Shown: in pieces, positions 3,280 through 15,784 of the stretch
Layout: each line of letters opens with the position of its first letter
Numbering within the stretch: position 1 is the first letter of the stretch
Assembly (NCBI GenBank): GCA_003695725.1
Contig: RFHX01000237.1
Location: 1-25,629, forward strand
Source of the DNA: J061 sp003695725 [NCBI: Candidatus Schekmanbacteria bacterium]
Lineage (GTDB): Bacteria > Schekmanbacteria > GWA2-38-11
Length of the DNA: 25,629 bases
Direction: 5' to 3'
Notes under the pieces: generated by a model
Databases searched by the model: none
What the model saw: the letters and a program-made list of their open reading frames with translations, nothing else
Told to the model about the DNA's origin: nothing
Made by a program: the position numbers and the translations under genes

Positions 3280-3377
3280 TGTCTTGATTTTTCAAAAAAA
3301 TTTTTTTAATCATACTTCGAAATTTCCATATCATTCACCAAATAGATATATTGAATATAACTTATAGGAGTATAAAA

Positions 3378-4136
3378 ATGAGATTGAAAGACAAAACTGC
3401 AGTAGTAACAGGCGCGGCTGGCGCTATAGGAGGAGCGATATCAGAAAGATTTGCAGAAGAAGGAGCAAAAGTAGTTTTGACTGACATCAATGAAGAAGGT
3501 GGGAATAAAATCGTTGAAAGAATCAAGTCCAAAGGTGGTGAAGCAACCTTTATCCGCGCTGATGCATTTATAGAAAATGAGCTCATAGATATGATAAACA
3601 AAAGCATAGAAACATATGGGCAGATAGATATTCTCGTCAATAATGTGGGATATGATTTTGACATTATGAAGGGATTGGATGAAATTTGCGCAGAAAACTG
3701 GAATAAATGCATCAACTTGAATTTGGTTTCATTTTTCATCTGCACAAGAGAAGCTGCAAAAGGAATGATGGAAAGAAGATACGGCAAGATTATAAATATG
3801 TCCTCCATTTCAAGGCGTGGAAATGCCATTCAACTTATTTATTCAGCAACGAAAGCAGGGATAGAAGGATTTACTCGCTCATGTGCAGCTTATTTGGGGC
3901 CCTATAATGTAAATGTAAACGCAATAGCGCCTGCACTGATTGAAACTGAAAGCATAAAATCACAAATATCAAAAGAAGAATGGGAAGCATTGAAAGCAGA
4001 TTGTGAATTCCGCTATCCTTTGGGAAGGGTTGGACAGCCCATTGATGTTGCAAATTGCGCCCTTTTTCTTGCATCAGACGAATCATCTTTTATAACAGGA
4101 CAAACGATTGAAGTTTCTGGAGGCGCACGTCTATAA
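3378..4136 (+). CDS. Short-chain dehydrogenase/reductase (SDR)
   Basis: This is a classical SDR of 252 residues. TGAAGAIG near the N-terminus is the NAD(P) glycine motif, NNVG replaces the usual NNAG, and the catalytic serine lies in NMSSIS ahead of YSATK (Tyr and Lys of the active site). The C-terminus has FITGQTIEVSGG, as in FabG-type members. An acidic Asp in VVLTDIN at the end of the second strand suggests a preference for NAD. The chosen ATG has AGGAG seven bases upstream; the TTG at 3351 has none. The substrate cannot be predicted. It precedes the bilin-reductase-like operon by 243 bp, and the two share an operator-like element, so a role in the same pathway is possible. Confidence 0.9.
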   Translation: MRLKDKTAVVTGAAGAIGGAISERFAEEGAKVVLTDINEEGGNKIVERIKSKGGEATFIRADAFIENELIDMINKSIETYGQIDILVNNVGYDFDIMKGLDEICAENWNKCINLNLVSFFICTREAAKGMMERRYGKIINMSSISRRGNAIQLIYSATKAGIEGFTRSCAAYLGPYNVNVNAIAPALIETESIKSQISKEEWEALKADCEFRYPLGRVGQPIDVANCALFLASDESSFITGQTIEVSGGARL

Positions 4137-4379: not shown

Positions 4380-4619
4380 ATGGCAGAATTCAATTTCACT
4401 GAAAACACAAAAGCTATGTATGAAACAATGCTTGAGCTTTCGCCGAAACCTTTTAGAGAGCAAACAAAGAAACAGCTCGATGAGTCAATTATAAAGATTA
4501 TTGGAGAAGGAAATCCAATTACAGAAGAAAACTTTATGAAAGTGGTAAAGGAGACAACACCTAAAGCCTTTCTTCCGATGGCGCTGAATGTTCTTGAACC
4601 GATGTTGACAAAAAAATAA
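4380..4619 (+). CDS. Small protein, weakly PCP_red-like, in the FDBR-like operon
   Basis: This is a 79-residue acidic helical protein without cysteines, signal peptide or membrane segment. The ATG follows GGAAGGA. The stretch from about residue 20 (PKPFREQTKKQLDE) through an 'ITEENF' segment loosely resembles PCP_red, the short C-terminal domain of light-independent protochlorophyllide reductase subunit B that also occurs as free-standing proteins. That match is by eye and weak. It is the first gene of a three-gene operon; the ferredoxin gene follows by 27 bp. A structural or partner role for the reductase is an inference from context. Confidence 0.6.
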   Translation: MAEFNFTENTKAMYETMLELSPKPFREQTKKQLDESIIKIIGEGNPITEENFMKVVKETTPKAFLPMALNVLEPMLTKK

Positions 4620-4646
4620 ATGAATCATTTGAAGGAGTGGAAAGAA

Positions 4647-4892
4647 ATGGATAACAAAGTCGAAACTGAAGGCAAACCTACAGGATTTCATGTCGATGAA
4701 ATGCTTTGCACCGGTTGTGGTGCGTGTATAGATGCCTGCCCAATGAAAATTCTCGAAATAATAGACGGGCAATGCAAAATGGTAAACAATATGATTTGTC
4801 TTGAATGTGGAATGTGCCTTCGTGCATGTCCGGAAGAAGCAATTTCCATTGACGGACTTGATGAAACAGGAATTGTAAAAGAACACGAGTAG
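4647..4892 (+). CDS. 2[4Fe-4S] ferredoxin
   Basis: This is an 81-residue bacterial-type ferredoxin with two cluster motifs: C21xxC24xxC27xxxC31P and C51xxC54xxC57xxxC61P. The spacing is regular, so both clusters should be low-potential [4Fe-4S]. An ATG at 4620 abuts the previous stop codon, but the ATG at 4647 is preferred because GAAGGAG (4631-4637) lies at proper distance before it. It sits between the small protein gene and the FDBR-like gene (18-bp gap). The FDBR family takes electrons from ferredoxin, so this is the obvious candidate donor. The ferredoxin call is certain; the pairing is inferred. Known FDBR donors are mostly [2Fe-2S] plant-type ferredoxins, so this partner type differs. 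Confidence 0.95.
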   Translation: MDNKVETEGKPTGFHVDEMLCTGCGACIDACPMKILEIIDGQCKMVNNMICLECGMCLRACPEEAISIDGLDETGIVKEHE

Positions 4893-4910
4893 AAAAGGAG
4901 ATATTGGAAA

Positions 4911-5642
4911 ATGTCAGAAAAATTTCAATTTACCGATTACAATGGACCAATGTGGGAACTCCTACAGGAGCTCAATCCTGTACAGGTTTTTGAATTTGAA
5001 GGAATGGATTTAAGCGATCTCAATAATTTCAAAATAGGCAATGAAGATTGTTTCCTCAGATGCTATAAGGCAGACAAAATAGAAAAGATCACTATTTCAA
5101 AAATGAATTTTTATGGCGGAATGATGGCTGGCGGCACTGTCATATGTCCTGCAGAAGATTATGATTTACCAACATTTTCATCAGACTGGGATGAATCAGA
5201 AGACCATCTTCATGGTATAATAGATTTTATCCCTGCAGACGACCCCGGCAGAAATGCAGAATACCTGAAAACATATCTTTATGAGCCATTAGAAGAGCTT
5301 TATAAAAAGTATTGCCGCATTCCGGGACTTCAACCAAATGTTTTTTATTGGGTACGAGCCTTCCAATCACCCTATATGCTTACAGGCCACATAAAACAGG
5401 TTGAAAATGGAAAATATGTTCAGGAATTTTTCAAATGTTCACAGGAATATTTGAAAAAATGGATTGAACTTTGGAAAAAAGCAGAAAGGAAAGACCCAAA
5501 TTCAGATTATATGAAACTTGTAAAACAAAGAAGAAAAAATATTAGAGAAACATATAGATACAATGACCCCGGTGAAGGACCTCTTACAAAAGTGCTTGGT
5601 GCTGAAAGAGCAAGAAAGATATTGAACACTTTAATGCCTTAA
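4911..5642 (+). CDS. Ferredoxin-dependent bilin reductase (PcyA/PebA/HY2)-like protein
   Basis: This 243-residue protein has the size of FDBRs, which reduce biliverdin or related open-chain tetrapyrroles using ferredoxin. Two regions look diagnostic. CPAEDYDLPTFSSD (79-92) matches the family strand 'P..DY.LP.F..D', placing Asp92 at the conserved catalytic aspartate (Asp105 of PcyA as I recall it), and is followed by GIIDFIP. The C-terminus YRYNDPGEGPLTKVLGAERA matches the family ending with ND..., a leucine, and (F/L)G.e.a. At the position I align with PcyA His88 there is Gly75, so the proton relay may differ. The start has AAAGGAG upstream. Red chlorophyll catabolite reductase is the related alternative. 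The substrate may be a bilin, a chlorophyll- or corrinoid-like product, or something else. No heme oxygenase gene is in the window. Confidence 0.72.
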   Translation: MSEKFQFTDYNGPMWELLQELNPVQVFEFEGMDLSDLNNFKIGNEDCFLRCYKADKIEKITISKMNFYGGMMAGGTVICPAEDYDLPTFSSDWDESEDHLHGIIDFIPADDPGRNAEYLKTYLYEPLEELYKKYCRIPGLQPNVFYWVRAFQSPYMLTGHIKQVENGKYVQEFFKCSQEYLKKWIELWKKAERKDPNSDYMKLVKQRRKNIRETYRYNDPGEGPLTKVLGAERARKILNTLMP

Positions 5643-5651
5643 CCAATTTTG

Positions 5652-5684
5652 AAAACGGCAGGATGTCTATCCTGCCGTTTTTTT
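5652..5684 (+). terminator. Intrinsic terminator after the FDBR-like operon
   Basis: A perfect 13-bp stem (AAAACGGCAGGAT with its complement at 5669-5681) closes a GTCT loop and runs into a seven-T tract. It starts ten bases after the stop codon of the FDBR-like gene. Confidence 0.93.
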
Positions 5685-5702
5685 ATTTTATTGAAATCGA
5701 TT

Positions 5703-6170
5703 ATGTATAATGAATCTTGGAAAGGACTTGTAGATTTTTACGAACTTGCATTTGGAAGCTGGATTGCATACATATTCTTGGTATGGATGTGGCGAAAGCT
5801 TCTGAAATATGAGCATCAGGGCTGGCGATATTCATTAGCTCTTCTCCTTAGCGCAAGTTTTTACATAATCAATCATTATTTTCTCAGAGCACCTTTTTAT
5901 AATCCCCTCATTTGGTCTTATACAATTTTCTTCATAATTGTCTGGTATTTCCTCTTTGTTCATTCCTTCCCCTTCTCCACAGTAAAAAAAATATTCGCTT
6001 TCTTATCAAATTTCCTTTTTGCAGCGGTTTATGTCCTTGCTGAAAACATTGCCAGATGGGCACATCAGGGAAAAATAATACGGGGAGTTGAAATACCTGA
6101 ATTTATATTTATGATTATATCCTGCCTTGCTACTCTCGGCATCATTCTATCCCATCGCAAAAAAGGATAA
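5703..6170 (+). CDS. Hypothetical five-helix membrane protein
   Basis: This is a 155-residue hydrophobic protein. I start it at the ATG at 5703, because the in-frame TTG at 5649 would make the terminator hairpin part of the coding sequence. About five membrane segments are visible: near residues 13-30, 42-60, 66-86, 93-112 and 127-148. It is rich in Trp, Tyr and Phe and ends in SHRKKG on the probable cytoplasmic side. I do not recognise a family. It lies on the same strand as its neighbours but is separated from the preceding operon by a strong terminator only 18 bp upstream, and the ribosome site is poor. Expression may depend on read-through. Confidence 0.6.
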   Translation: MYNESWKGLVDFYELAFGSWIAYIFLVWMWRKLLKYEHQGWRYSLALLLSASFYIINHYFLRAPFYNPLIWSYTIFFIIVWYFLFVHSFPFSTVKKIFAFLSNFLFAAVYVLAENIARWAHQGKIIRGVEIPEFIFMIISCLATLGIILSHRKKG

Positions 6171-11674: not shown

Positions 11675-11747
11675 CTAAAGGCAATCTTTTTAGAAGCATA
11701 TTGAAGAAGAATGTTTAATTTTGCATTTAAGACGAAAGGAGTTTTTT

Positions 11748-12047
11748 ATGGACTTTTTTGAAAGATGTTACGCAAAAGAAACGTCAATTGTAGCAAGGAA
11801 AATTGCCGATGAAATAATTTTAGTACCTGTAAGAAAGAATGTTGGAGATTTAGAAAGTATTTATACCCTGAATGAAGTTGGTGCTAAAATCTGGGAATTG
11901 ATTGATGGTAAAAGAAAGATCAAAGATATTAGAGACGCAATACTGGAGGAATTTGACGCTACCGAAGAACAGGTAAATGAAGATTTAAGGGAATTTATAA
12001 AAAAGTTCGAAGAAATAGGCGGGATAAAGTTAATTAAAAAATTTTAG
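11748..12047 (+). CDS. PqqD-family peptide chaperone / RiPP recognition element
   Basis: This is a 99-residue PqqD-type protein, the winged-helix fold that binds leader peptides and hands them to radical SAM enzymes. The features are ESIYTLNEVGAKIWELIDGK in the middle (a beta strand followed by 'LNEVGA.IWELIDG', the family hallmark) and an IRDAILEEFD...V..DL.EFI helix pair. The ATG follows GAAAGGAG; the TTG at 11721 is upstream of that site and is rejected. The radical SAM gene starts two bases after its stop codon. In characterised systems this protein recognises a precursor peptide, but no precursor is seen here. Confidence 0.9.
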   Translation: MDFFERCYAKETSIVARKIADEIILVPVRKNVGDLESIYTLNEVGAKIWELIDGKRKIKDIRDAILEEFDATEEQVNEDLREFIKKFEEIGGIKLIKKF

Positions 12048-12048
12048 A

Positions 12049-13155
12049 ATGACTGCTGACTGCATACATATTCCAATCTCTGAATATAGTGAATTCAGCA
12101 AAAGAATTCATGAAAAGGCAAAGGAAACACGAATACCTCTTGGCGGTTCAATAGAAATAACATCAAGATGCAATCTCAACTGTCTCCACTGCTATATCAA
12201 CTCTCCGATAGACAATGCCAAAAAAGAAGAAAGAGGAGAATTGACTACAGAGGAAATCTTCAAAATTCTCGACTCCATTGCAGAAGAGGGATGTCTATGG
12301 CTTCTGCTGACAGGAGGTGAACCATTATTAAGAAAGGATTTTTTTGAAATATACAATTATGCAAAAAAGAAAGGATTCTTAATTACTCTTTTTACCAATG
12401 GAACTTTGATTGACGAAAAAACAGCAGATTATCTTGCAGATTGGCGCCCTTTTGCCGTTGAAATATCTGTTTACGGACGAACAAAAGAAACCTACGAAAA
12501 GATGACTGCCGTAAAGGGGTCATATGAAAAATTTCTCAATGGGTTGGAACGAATTCATAAAAGAAATATTTCTTTAAAATTGAAAGCCGTCGTAACATCA
12601 GTCAATATCTCAGAGCTCGATGAAATAAAGAGATGGGCTACGGAAGAACTGAACCTCCCCTTTCGTTTCGACCCTCTCATCAATATGACTTTAAATGGAA
12701 ATGTGCGGCCCAAAAAAGTAAGGATATCAGCAGAAGATGTCGTCAAATTGGATGTCAACGACAAGGAAAGAATGGCAGAATGGAAGAAGTTTTGCGATAA
12801 ATTTCTTGGTACTCCAAACAATGATTCCCTATTTCTATGCGGCGCTGGAATCAATTCTTTTCATATAGATTCTTACGGCAATTTGACTCCCTGCATACTT
12901 GTACGCTCTGAAAGCTATTCCCTTCGCAGTGGAAATTTCAAGGACGGTTATTATAACTGGATGCCCAAAGTATTATCCAAGAAAAGAACGAAAAAATCGA
13001 AATGTATCTCCTGTAATTTAGTCGCAATGTGCGGACAATGTCCCGGATGGGCAGAGCTTGAATGCGGAGATATGGAAAAACCTGTAGAGTATCTCTGTAA
13101 AATTGCTCACCTTAGAGCTGAAAAATTCTTTCAAGAATGGGAAAAGAACAAATAA
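12049..13155 (+). CDS. Radical SAM/SPASM peptide-modifying enzyme
   Basis: This is a 368-residue protein resembling PqqE and other SPASM maturases. CNLNCLHC (Cys41, Cys45, Cys48) binds the SAM [4Fe-4S] cluster and GGEPLL (89-94) is the SAM-contact motif. A C-terminal SPASM region with Cys264, 282, 319, 322, 328, 331, 339 and 350 should hold two auxiliary clusters, including the CxxCx5CxxC core with CPGWAELE. Such enzymes form C-C, thioether or ether crosslinks or epimerise residues. The gene starts two bases after the PqqD stop codon, so translation is coupled. The reaction and substrate peptide are unknown; acting on a peptide is inferred from the SPASM domain and the PqqD partner. Confidence 0.93.
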   Translation: MTADCIHIPISEYSEFSKRIHEKAKETRIPLGGSIEITSRCNLNCLHCYINSPIDNAKKEERGELTTEEIFKILDSIAEEGCLWLLLTGGEPLLRKDFFEIYNYAKKKGFLITLFTNGTLIDEKTADYLADWRPFAVEISVYGRTKETYEKMTAVKGSYEKFLNGLERIHKRNISLKLKAVVTSVNISELDEIKRWATEELNLPFRFDPLINMTLNGNVRPKKVRISAEDVVKLDVNDKERMAEWKKFCDKFLGTPNNDSLFLCGAGINSFHIDSYGNLTPCILVRSESYSLRSGNFKDGYYNWMPKVLSKKRTKKSKCISCNLVAMCGQCPGWAELECGDMEKPVEYLCKIAHLRAEKFFQEWEKNK

Positions 13156-13177
13156 TCTGTGAAAAAAATTATCTGAA

Positions 13178-14062
13178 ATGGATTCTGTAAAATTAAATAT
13201 AGCAGATATAATAATTGAAGTTGAAACAGAAACAGCCAATCTCACTTTCACTGACGACCAAGCCCATAAAAAATTCATAGTTGAAGATGGCACCCCTCAT
13301 ATTAAATTATTTGCTCATTATGGAAAACTTCCGAACATAAAACTTGGGAAACTCATTTTCGACTCAGAAAGCGTTTGGAAATTATATTCGTCGATCGATG
13401 ACGACAAAGTTGTGTTTACGCTTCATTCTCCGCCAAACGCTGAAACTCCCTATTCGATAGCCGTAATCGATAAAAGCTTTAGGAAAGGAGAAATCTATCT
13501 TTCCAATTCAGCACTACCGGAAGAAAGTCCATCACCGAACCCGCTCAATTACCCACTTGATGAACTAATAATGCTGTCTATCCTTTCGAAAGGTTACGGG
13601 ATCATTCTTCATTCCGCCTGCGTCTCAGATAATGGAAGAGGAATGCTTTTTACAGGAACTTCCGGAGCTGGTAAAAGCACGATATCTGCTATTTGGAAAA
13701 ATAAGGATGGTGTAACAGTGCTTACCGATGAAAGGGTCATCATCAAGAAGGAAAACAGCAGATATGTCGCCTATGGCACACCATGGCACGGTACTGCAAA
13801 AATCCATTCCCCTGAAAAAACTAATTTAGATGGAATTTTTTTCATAAAGCACGGTAAAGAAAATAATGCCAAACCACTCAATAAGATCGATGCTGTATCA
13901 AGATTCATAGCAAGAGCTTTCCCGACTTATTGGGATAAAGAAGGGATGGAGTTTTCTCTCAATTTTGCTTCTGCAGTAGTCGAAAATGTCTCCTGTTTTG
14001 AACTGTATTTTACACCTGATGATGGAGTTGTAGATTATGTCCGCTCAATCAAAAAACAATGA
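13178..14062 (+). CDS. HPr kinase/phosphorylase-like P-loop protein
   Basis: This 294-residue protein has a C-terminal half resembling the HprK kinase domain: a HSACVSDNGRGMLF strand, Walker A GTSGAGKST (160-168), TDER (183-186) as the acidic segment, and GTPWHG, a hallmark of HPrK-like proteins. The first 125 residues are unlike HPrK and probably form a separate domain. HPrK homologues lacking HPr are common in peptide-modification clusters, where one type phosphorylates a serine of a lasso precursor. A kinase acting on a peptide or small molecule is therefore plausible but inferred. It starts 22 bp after the radical SAM gene, and its end overlaps the next gene by 26 bases. Confidence 0.82.
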   Translation: MDSVKLNIADIIIEVETETANLTFTDDQAHKKFIVEDGTPHIKLFAHYGKLPNIKLGKLIFDSESVWKLYSSIDDDKVVFTLHSPPNAETPYSIAVIDKSFRKGEIYLSNSALPEESPSPNPLNYPLDELIMLSILSKGYGIILHSACVSDNGRGMLFTGTSGAGKSTISAIWKNKDGVTVLTDERVIIKKENSRYVAYGTPWHGTAKIHSPEKTNLDGIFFIKHGKENNAKPLNKIDAVSRFIARAFPTYWDKEGMEFSLNFASAVVENVSCFELYFTPDDGVVDYVRSIKKQ

Positions 14063-14543
14063 GACGGGTAATTCTGAAAGCAAACTCTTCAAGGAACTTT
14101 CAGAGGAAATTTTGAAGAGGAACCATATTCTAAGATTTGAGGCAAGAGGAGGAAGTATGCACCCCTTCATCAAGGACAGAGACATAATTAAGATAAAAAA
14201 GATAGACCCAAAAAAGTTGAAAAAAGGAGACATCATCTTTTTTTCTTCAAACGATAATAAGATGATTGCCCACAGAATAATCAAAATCAAAGGTTCTGAA
14301 AACAAGCCACTGACTTTTTTGACAAAAGGAGATGCTTGCACAAACTACGATATGGAAGTACCAGAATCAAAGGTGCTTGGAAAAATTATCTCTATTGAAC
14401 GAAATGGGAAAGAAATGTCTGAAGAAAACTTGTTGGCGCAGTTTAAAAATTTCATAATTTCTAAAATTTCACCCTTTTCGTTTATCCTTTATCCAGTGGG
14501 GCAGAAAGCAAAAAAAATAGGTATGACACTGCTCAAAAAATGA
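14037..14543 (+). CDS. S24/S26-family (signal peptidase I-like) protein
   Basis: This is a 168-residue protein. GGSMHPFI (38-45) is the nucleophile box with Ser40. IAHRI places His79 where bacterial signal peptidases have lysine, as in SipW and ER-type enzymes. KGDAC...D (97-105) resembles the conserved GD..N..D box. There is no clear N-terminal membrane anchor; only a weakly hydrophobic C-terminal helix (about 130-155) could associate with the membrane. It overlaps the HPrK-like gene by 26 bp and the nucleotidyltransferase gene by 4 bp. In a RiPP-type locus it could remove a leader peptide, which is an inference. Confidence 0.82.
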   Translation: MSAQSKNNETGNSESKLFKELSEEILKRNHILRFEARGGSMHPFIKDRDIIKIKKIDPKKLKKGDIIFFSSNDNKMIAHRIIKIKGSENKPLTFLTKGDACTNYDMEVPESKVLGKIISIERNGKEMSEENLLAQFKNFIISKISPFSFILYPVGQKAKKIGMTLLKK

Positions 14544-15784
14544 AATACAAAAAAATCAACAGTCTTATATTTAATCTGACTCTTGGAAGAATCGATGAAG
14601 CTGAAAGCATCGTAAAATCAGCTGAAAGAGAAGGTATGCCTATCGATTGGGAGGCGCTTGTCGATTTAGCCGCATATCACGGCGTCGCTTCAATTATCTA
14701 CAAAAATATAAAAGATATAAAACCACGGTTTGTTGACAACTCTTTCCTATCAGAAATAGAATCTTACTACTACGGAATAGCAGGAAAAAATACAAACTAT
14801 TTTGCTGAGATGGACAAGATTCTTTTGACCTTAAACGATTCTGGTGTAGATACTATTCTTCTCAAAGGTGCGGCATTGGGAGAAACGGTTTATAATAACA
14901 TTGCATTAAGGCCCATTGAGGATATCGACCTTCTTGTAAAAAGGTTTGATTTTCCTGCGGCAAAAGCTGCATTCAAGAGATGGGGTTATGATGTCCATGA
15001 AAAGATTTTCCCATCCCGCATTCATAAGGAAATCGAAATGGAAAGGCATAAGCCATTCGAAAAATACGAAAGCGAACTTCATTTCTTCGACAAGAAAAAC
15101 CGCTTCTTCTTCGACATTCATTGGAATCTGCTGATTGTCTGTGAATCAGGAATTGCAGAAGCTATTCAGCTGAATATGGATAAAATATGGCAGAGAATAA
15201 AAGAGATAAGCACAGGCGAGGCATATGCATATACAATGTCTGATGAAGACAATCTCATCTACCTATGCCTCCACCTTCGTGAGAGACACTTTGAAAAGGC
15301 GCGCTCACGCTTGATTTGGTGGTATGATGTCTATATGCTCCTAAAGCAATCCCTGAATACTTTGGACTGTGCTTATTTTCTCAACACTGTATCTGAATAC
15401 GGCGCTGAAAAATCTGTTTTTTCAATAATCAAAACTGTTAAAACCCTATTTGGGATAGAGCTTCCTAAAGAAATAGATGATGCCATTGGAGATGATATAG
15501 AAACTTTTGAACTCAATAAACTTATCCCCGAGCCAACAGACCAGATAAAATATCAAAGAGTTTTCGTAGAGAGAGACTATCTTGCTGAAATCAAAAACAT
15601 CAAAGGAATTACCAAAAAAATTCGCATTCTAATCGGTGATATCTTTCCTGACAGCAGATATATGGTTTCTTATTACCGTATTGAAAACAAAGCCCTTCTT
15701 CCATTATATTATCTCATAAGGTTCAAAAATGTCCTCATCAAAGGGTTGAAAGCAGCGAATCAGTTGATAAAAAACAATCAATAG
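14540..15784 (+). CDS. NTP_transf_5-type nucleotidyltransferase
   Basis: This is a 414-residue protein. LLKGAALGETVY followed by RPIEDIDLLV (two metal-binding aspartates) is the core of the uncharacterised nucleotidyltransferase family (NTP_transf_5) that recurs in lasso-peptide and other RiPP or polysaccharide loci. The remainder is helical, with FFDIHWNLL and YLCLHLRERHFEKARSRLIWWYD, which is typical of the family. It overlaps the S26-like gene by four bases (ATGA) and closes the five-gene unit. It may transfer a nucleotide to a peptide, sugar or toxin-like target; none of these is shown by the sequence. Confidence 0.85.
   Translation: MKYKKINSLIFNLTLGRIDEAESIVKSAEREGMPIDWEALVDLAAYHGVASIIYKNIKDIKPRFVDNSFLSEIESYYYGIAGKNTNYFAEMDKILLTLNDSGVDTILLKGAALGETVYNNIALRPIEDIDLLVKRFDFPAAKAAFKRWGYDVHEKIFPSRIHKEIEMERHKPFEKYESELHFFDKKNRFFFDIHWNLLIVCESGIAEAIQLNMDKIWQRIKEISTGEAYAYTMSDEDNLIYLCLHLRERHFEKARSRLIWWYDVYMLLKQSLNTLDCAYFLNTVSEYGAEKSVFSIIKTVKTLFGIELPKEIDDAIGDDIETFELNKLIPEPTDQIKYQRVFVERDYLAEIKNIKGITKKIRILIGDIFPDSRYMVSYYRIENKALLPLYYLIRFKNVLIKGLKAANQLIKNNQ

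Follow-up and report, generated by a model that had tools for sequence, protein, structure and literature searches.

The window, the whole stretch of 25,629 nucleotides that was analysed, has a G+C content of 36-38% and belongs to a genome of 2.77 Mb that is 98% complete (G000, the own genome below). Three ORFs of 79, 90 and 243 aa run co-directionally on its forward strand with inter-ORF gaps of 0 and 18 nt, each start being preceded by a purine-rich stretch (by eye), in agreement with the three-gene operon that the first-pass annotation had described (Table 1). The second gene had been called a 2[4Fe-4S] ferredoxin, and two Cx2Cx2Cx3CP motifs were found in it together with a Fer4 match; its better start is an in-frame ATG with AAGGAG nine bases upstream. 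The operon had also been described as ending in a terminator, and such a stem was recovered directly 3' of the reductase stop, as one of three terminator-like sites between positions 4100 and 5800, where shuffled sequence would give 1.1; the other two have stems of 7 and 6 pairs.

Table 1. Features of the operon and of its immediate context, in window coordinates
Feature	Position	Strand	Evidence
SDR dehydrogenase, upstream context, may not be part of the unit	3351-4136	+	adh_short_C2, E 3.9e-62
79-aa helical protein, PCP_red-like module (moderate confidence)	4380-4619	+	AF2 model, hhalign, Foldseek
2[4Fe-4S] ferredoxin (90 aa), probable true start 4647	4620-4892	+	Fer4, E 1.3e-12
FDBR-superfamily reductase, 243 aa	4911-5642	+	PF05996, 57.1 bits; AF2 model
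Asp92 codon (PcyA Asp105, GtPEBB Asp99)	5184-5186	+	Alignments with PcyA-like rows and 6qwq
Asp219 codon (GtPEBB Asp219)	5565-5567	+	Alignments with PcyA-like rows and 6qwq
Membrane protein 3' of the terminator, context; likely start ATG 5703	5649-6170	+	Homology to G001 locus
Intrinsic-terminator-like site, 14-pair stem and T tail	5651-5682	+	Terminator-like-site scan

Both context genes have counterparts close to an FDBR in G001, a genome of the same family: an SDR at locus L034 is 78% identical to the window SDR, and L034:9268-9735 is 56% identical to the membrane protein. Further 5' in the window, positions 147-1442 encode a PNPOx_N domain fused to an alpha/beta hydrolase, and PNPOx_N proteins make up 4/150 operonic FDBR neighbours elsewhere. 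At positions 11721-15784, PqqD-like, radical SAM/SPASM-like, HPr-kinase-like, signal-peptidase-like and nucleotidyltransferase-like proteins lie with ABC transporters, a set that by eye resembles a peptide-modification cluster.

Family, predicted fold and active-site residues of the reductase

Membership of the 243-aa protein in the FDBR superfamily is well supported. It had been assigned by eye from an FDBR strand and a C-terminal signature, both of which were found (CPAEDYDLPTFSSD and NDPG...LG), and a profile search with PF05996 gave a match far beyond chance (E 2.7e-15 against a Pfam cut-off of 31 bits). When the single sequence was searched against the PDB, just two relatives came up at E<=1, PebB (6qwq, E 5e-5) and HY2 (6kmd, E 0.0014); this search is free of the bias affecting PcyA ranks from the profile of alignment A1, which contains two PcyA-like rows. 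An AF2 model predicted from three sequences (pLDDT 80, pTM 0.82; residues 112-122 and 143-151 below 50) displays the alpha/beta/alpha sandwich of PcyA and PebB. The best Foldseek matches of this model were HY2, PebB, PebA and PcyA, followed by RCCR, PebS and PcyX, and oxygen-dependent CPOX came last among the fold matches, appearing in Foldseek only at E 0.05 and above. Fold comparison yielded Z values of 24.9 to PebB with dihydrobiliverdin (6qx6; 226 residues aligned, 2.2 A), 24.1 to HY2 with biliverdin (6kmd/6kme), and at best 20.6 to RCCR and 18.0 to CPOX, the identity to PebB and HY2 being 16-21%. The first-pass annotation had named a missing FDBR profile match combined with a different fold as the outcome that would speak against it; both the match and the fold were present. 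One subunit of a chloroplast motor complex, which bears the name PcyA (8xqw, 8xks) and ranked with RCCR, PebS and PcyX, has the same fold, and the fold alone therefore proves no function.

Both aspartates of Table 1 are retained in 13/13 members of the ferredoxin-linked clade described below, and their GtPEBB equivalents, Asp99 and Asp219, are essential residues according to the sections of PMC6755814 drawn on here. Among the other FDBRs (134 rows), the position of Asp92 is occupied by E in 50, D in 39, N in 21, Y in 10, F in 6, T in 3 and R in 3, a variety which suggests that substrates vary. Glu76 and His88 of PcyA are replaced in the alignment by Ser63 and Gly75, and the identification of the protein as PcyA was rejected on these grounds. 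Tyr215 stands in place of GtPEBB Arg215, the position being Y in 11/13 and L in 2/13 clade members by sequence alignment only. A search with the RCC reductase profile had been proposed as well; PF06405 was not matched by the window reductase at E<=1, and was matched by 6/29 FDBR family members at E<=0.1 (best 1.8e-4).

Ferredoxin pairing, copy number and gene neighbourhoods

A set of 150 FDBR ORFs (E<=1e-4) was collected from the fetched loci of 17 genomes, and a FastTree phylogeny was calculated from 147 of them (three short ones were omitted) and three PcyA-like sequences. Long proteins were trimmed to their last 250 residues, so that the ferredoxin part had no influence on the tree. The window reductase fell into a clade of 12 with a local support of 0.99, or of 13 with a support of 0.90 when L030 of G003 is included. 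A two-cluster ferredoxin, as judged by a loose Cx2Cx2Cx3C motif, accompanies 13/13 members of this clade, fused to the N terminus of the reductase in ten and encoded by a separate gene immediately upstream in three (the window, G396 and G003). The ten fusions, each one protein of about 330 residues and that of L009 measuring 328 aa, come from eight genomes (G060, G387, G388, G389, G392 (twice), G393 (twice), G394 and G400). Outside the clade, 9/137 FDBR ORFs have a same-strand ferredoxin frame with the loose motif no more than 700 nt away. A strict motif, which requires Pro or Gly at its end, was found for 12/13 clade members versus 3/137 other ORFs, the exception in the clade being L254, with Ser after the first fused motif. 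The Fisher values for this pairing (3e-14 and 3e-13) take no account of how closely the rows are related, and they apply to a clade that was defined, from reductase residues only, after the fusions had been noticed. Compared over 57-84 residues, the window ferredoxin is 45-65% identical to the N-terminal domains of the ten fusions and 43 and 53% identical to the two other separate ferredoxins. Ten fusions and three adjacent pairs argue strongly, by the logic of gene fusion, that the two proteins work as donor and reductase, and the pairing of ferredoxin and reductase is strongly supported by evidence that is genomic in kind, in line with the self-contained unit proposed earlier. The clade is patchily distributed, being present in 11/17 genomes with fetched FDBR loci and not seen in G001 or G002.

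The 79-aa protein was modelled from its single sequence with AF2 as four helices (pLDDT 87), and homologues were found in 5/5 genomes searched, both as standalone proteins and as a domain at the N terminus of FMN_red flavoproteins. Its suspected weak likeness to PCP_red did not appear as a significant direct match: PF08369 was not matched in the profile search, in which only DUF2621 was listed (E 0.15), hhalign aligned the two directly with a probability of 3.8, and in Foldseek the PCP_red domain 2kru ranked second with a non-significant E of 1.7. Through intermediates the likeness had some support, since hhalign linked the protein to the FMN_red N-domain with a probability of 96 and that domain to PCP_red with a probability of 95, five column-shuffled controls reaching at most 0.4. 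With moderate confidence, it is regarded as a PCP_red-like accessory module. A flavoprotein bearing the small-protein domain lies directly 3' of two fusions (L208, L224). PCP_red-like domains occur on many redox proteins of these genomes, several with weak scores, and presence in the operon is therefore of low specificity. Among the loci L114, L116, L117 and L110, where partner proteins were named partly by eye, a NuoE-like subunit seems to carry the small-protein domain twice, and PCP_red-like domains were seen on NIR_SIR-like proteins, an MFS transporter and a DUF169-like protein.

FDBR genes are numerous in the own genome, where the profile search gave 13 PF05996 matches, of which 12 exceed the cut-off; in G001 there are 8, and the same-order genomes G002 and G003 have 3 each, G003 with one more by BLAST. 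Among 386 genomes comprising that of the window and its relatives (at most 7 candidates scored in each), eight had PF05996 matches, namely G000-G003 and, among the 382 others sampled, four with one copy each. Three of these single copies score 262-272 bits and are PcyA-like, with the Glu/His/Asp set, and the fourth scores 33.6 bits. A scan of named genomes returned a sole relative, at 51% identity, in the Thermodesulfobacteriota MAG SKW55 (G060). In 297 genomes comprising G060 and its relatives, 13 matched, each with at least 6-9 copies when no more than 9 candidates were scored per genome, and 284 had no match; the fetched loci of G060 and 12 relatives contain 6-13 FDBR copies each, which are lower bounds. 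Over the 17 genomes, fetched loci hold 3-13 FDBR ORFs per genome, with 12 in the own genome. The G060 group is read as a lineage separate from that of the window because it is absent among the 386 genomes. In a tblastn search of 50,697 phage records three matches were obtained, all at 24% identity and E 3, and a scan of viral contigs with three sequences gave 24 pattern matches and 0 confirmed relatives. What looks by eye like a signal peptide or a membrane anchor is present at the N terminus of two FDBR paralogues, L199:449-1240 and L174:4008-4919, which suggests export of a bilin-reductase-like protein.

Operonic neighbours were defined as same-strand genes of at least 90 aa lying no more than 120 nt away, with two at most counted on each side. 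For the first set of 126 FDBR ORFs, 93 had such a neighbour, giving 169 proteins, of which 150 were scanned against Pfam (the 19 omitted were short and included the window ferredoxin) and the 25 commonest of 140 families were reported. The commonest neighbours of the wider FDBR family are generic redox proteins, with Flavodoxin_5 in 9 of the 150, FAD_binding_2 in 7, SDR and FMN_red in 6 each, AOR in 5, PNPOx, alpha/beta hydrolases and radical SAM in 4 each and B12-binding in 3. Geranylgeranyl-reductase-like FAD proteins (by eye; general FAD families in Pfam) and a weakly SCP2-like family recur. At six loci with fused or paired genes (L009, L183, L221, L232, L199 and L180) an orthologous SDR, 64-74% identical to that of L009, lies within two genes, and a second FDBR adjoins the first in five of them, the exception being L221 at a contig end. 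The window operon has neither an ortholog of this fusion-linked SDR nor a second adjacent FDBR, and the window SDR is 32-33% identical to the fusion-linked one, which weakened its candidacy as a conserved partner. The own-genome counterpart of the fusion-linked SDR (54%) lies on a 3.4-kb contig, C152, on which an FDBR was not seen.

Tetrapyrrole-type neighbours (BchB-like, CPOX-like and NIR_SIR proteins) belong to some sister copies and not to the window operon, the sister group of the window clade being a 28-member clade with a support of 0.93 in the first tree (126-ORF set). In G060 (contig C122; L134 / L073), two NifH-like proteins, a NifE/BchN-like, a BchB-like and an NmrA-like protein share an operon with an FDBR that has Tyr at the place of the catalytic aspartate. 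The BchB-like subunit ends in a PCP_red-like tail (31.6 bits against a cut-off of 32.5), and no equivalog cut-off was reached by the nitrogenase-like genes, so DPOR is not claimed and the operon is described as a nitrogenase-like reductase without assignment. In the own genome (contig C23; L002), a NIR_SIR/4Fe-4S protein, an FDBR with Glu at the catalytic aspartate and a CPOX-like protein (PF01218, 43.4 bits, cut-off 31.8) follow one another on one strand, the first with a weak PCP_red-like start (E 0.05). Two tandem NifH-like genes and a NifE/BchB-like gene were also observed on contig C20 of the own genome (L131), with similar genes in G001, and a lone NifE/NifD-like gene on contig C233 (L130). 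A general link between FDBRs and nitrogenase-like genes was set aside, the NifH-like and NifE/NifD-like genes of G000 and G001 having no FDBR nearby and the joint operon occurring only in G060.

Substrate, mechanism and alternatives

Neither the usual source nor a usual user of a bilin was seen in the five genomes tested, in which heme oxygenase (PF01126, E<=1) and the PHY domain were each found in 0/5; in a control the PF01126 profile matched in 5/14 control genomes, above the cut-off in 3. The first-pass annotation had seen no signs of photosynthesis in this genome segment, and the PHY result gave no sign of bilin photobiology. Globin, V4R and heme oxygenase were not found in the nine window proteins scanned or among the 25 commonest neighbour families, where single cases could be hidden. 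COX1-family matches were obtained in 4/5 genomes, and a strictly anaerobic lifestyle therefore need not hold, oxygen use being possible.

The reading favoured here, with a probability of about 0.55, is that the operon encodes a private ferredoxin-reductase pair acting on a tetrapyrrole-like substrate. Family, predicted fold, aspartate pair and ferredoxin pairing are supported by the computation, and for electron flow, substrate class and the role of the small protein we infer the following. Docked on the FDBR-fold protein, the 2[4Fe-4S] ferredoxin would deliver electrons one at a time to a conjugated substrate of tetrapyrrole-like character, bound with the beta sheet on one side and the C-terminal helices on the other. 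Protons may come from Asp92 and Asp219 in the manner of the PebB aspartate pair, in which case the reductase itself would require neither a metal nor a flavin, and the PCP_red-like small protein could have an accessory role or assist docking. As for the substrate, it would probably be a linear or otherwise modified tetrapyrrole that does not arise via classical heme oxygenase and is either scavenged or the product of another opening enzyme. This reading is favoured by the PF05996 score, the fold matches, the aspartate pair, the ferredoxin pairing and the likeness of the window ferredoxin to the fused domains, together with the small-protein domain on the flavoprotein after two fusions and the tetrapyrrole-type neighbours of sister copies. 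Against it stand the heme oxygenase and PHY results, the change of Arg215 to Tyr, the generic redox neighbours, the varied Asp92 position, the patchiness of the clade, the motor-complex subunit with the same fold and the alpha/beta hydrolase and weakly SCP2-like neighbours. Of the tetrapyrrole reduction originally proposed, the donor-reductase unit and the FDBR fold were supported; a bilin is a plausible substrate, and a corrinoid product or a chlorophyll catabolite would likewise be no more than a candidate, PF06405 being unmatched at E<=1, Glu76/His88 and Arg215 not conserved and PF01126 found in 0/5 genomes.

The alternative that excludes a tetrapyrrole-like substrate is re-use of the FDBR fold for another conjugated compound, such as a quinone, a polyprenoid or a sterol-like or aromatic molecule, whereby the ferredoxin-FDBR unit would be a cofactor-free low-potential reductase of lipid or aromatic metabolism. 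The SDR, FMN_red, AOR and alpha/beta hydrolase neighbours, the recurrent geranylgeranyl-reductase-like and weakly SCP2-like proteins, the ortholog set of SDRs beside the fusions, the differing active-site residues of paralogues and the heme oxygenase result would all fit such a role. However, among the PDB entries of the fold comparison every enzyme (FDBR, RCCR and CPOX) acts on tetrapyrroles, the one remaining entry being the motor-complex subunit, the window clade retains the full aspartate pair, and sister copies adjoin BchB-like, CPOX-like and NIR_SIR proteins. Fold re-use is considered possible but less probable than a tetrapyrrole-like substrate.

Two special cases of the favoured reading are both considered improbable. 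The marginally stronger of the two, a reduction of the RCCR type acting on environmentally acquired breakdown products of chlorophyll or heme, could draw on the fold match to RCCR and on the few family members that match PF06405, a profile which the window reductase itself does not match. Conventional synthesis of the pre-PcyA type, in which biliverdin becomes phytochromobilin or phycoerythrobilin and supplies a bilin-binding protein, is a small possibility consistent with the sections of Rockwell et al. 2023 (PMC10151467) drawn on here, in which pre-PcyA proteins of heterotrophic bacteria are active FDBRs and pre-1 and pre-3 lie close to an Fe-S protein. It is opposed by the heme oxygenase and PHY counts and by the neighbour families reported, and in the same sections Ca. 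Schekmanbacteria sequences are grouped in the RCCR outgroup and not with pre-PcyA.

Relation to known systems

FDBRs are known for their part in making photosynthetic pigments, and a few active relatives occur in heterotrophs; the photosynthetic enzymes use a plant-type [2Fe-2S] ferredoxin. PebB and HY2, the best fold matches, differ in this respect from the window reductase and its clade, in which a 2[4Fe-4S] ferredoxin is encoded next to the reductase or fused with it. RCCR and oxygen-dependent CPOX share the fold as well; the window reductase lacks the PF06405 match of RCCR, and CPOX is oxygen-dependent and not known to be ferredoxin-linked. The pre-PcyA lineages resemble the window in having an FDBR-family protein in non-photosynthetic bacteria, at times near an Fe-S protein, and Asp105 is kept in the window reductase as in pre-2 and pre-3 (PMC10151467, in the sections drawn on). 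They differ in that globins and V4R proteins, and often heme oxygenase as well, are encoded in their clusters, whereas none of these was seen among the scanned window genes, and neither a ferredoxin fusion nor a dozen-copy expansion is described for them in those sections. There, Ca. Schekmanbacteria sequences, possibly of the same lineage as the window, were first placed between FDBR and RCCR and later within the RCCR outgroup, with function, ferredoxin fusion and copy number given for none. Two newly found clades with no characterised members appear in the part of PMC13193486 (2026) drawn on, and these might include sequences of the Ca. Schekmanbacteria type. Fusion or copy-number expansion was not named in the titles and abstract openings that full-text searches of openly licensed PMC papers brought up; FDBRs of heterotrophs are known already, and the ferredoxin-wired clade and its copy number seem to be new.

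The combination of this clade with up to about a dozen paralogues per genome and the heme oxygenase result suggests that the FDBR family does something undescribed. Tentatively, in what appear to be two separate lineages of uncultured bacteria, the FDBR fold may have diversified into a family of reductases that work without a cofactor, are driven by ferredoxin and number about a dozen in each genome, the window clade being a permanently wired branch that would act on a non-biliverdin substrate with chemistry new for the fold; the balance of probability is somewhat against so broad a proposal. A published idea holds that known enzymes of the FDBR fold ultimately depend on oxygen (PMC10151467, in the sections drawn on), and the FDBR-rich genomes may be a counter-example to this dependence or reveal another source of open-chain tetrapyrroles, though the COX1-family matches in 4/5 of those tested make oxygen use possible. 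The fusion, with ten cases at hand, is a single protein that can be directly expressed and assayed.
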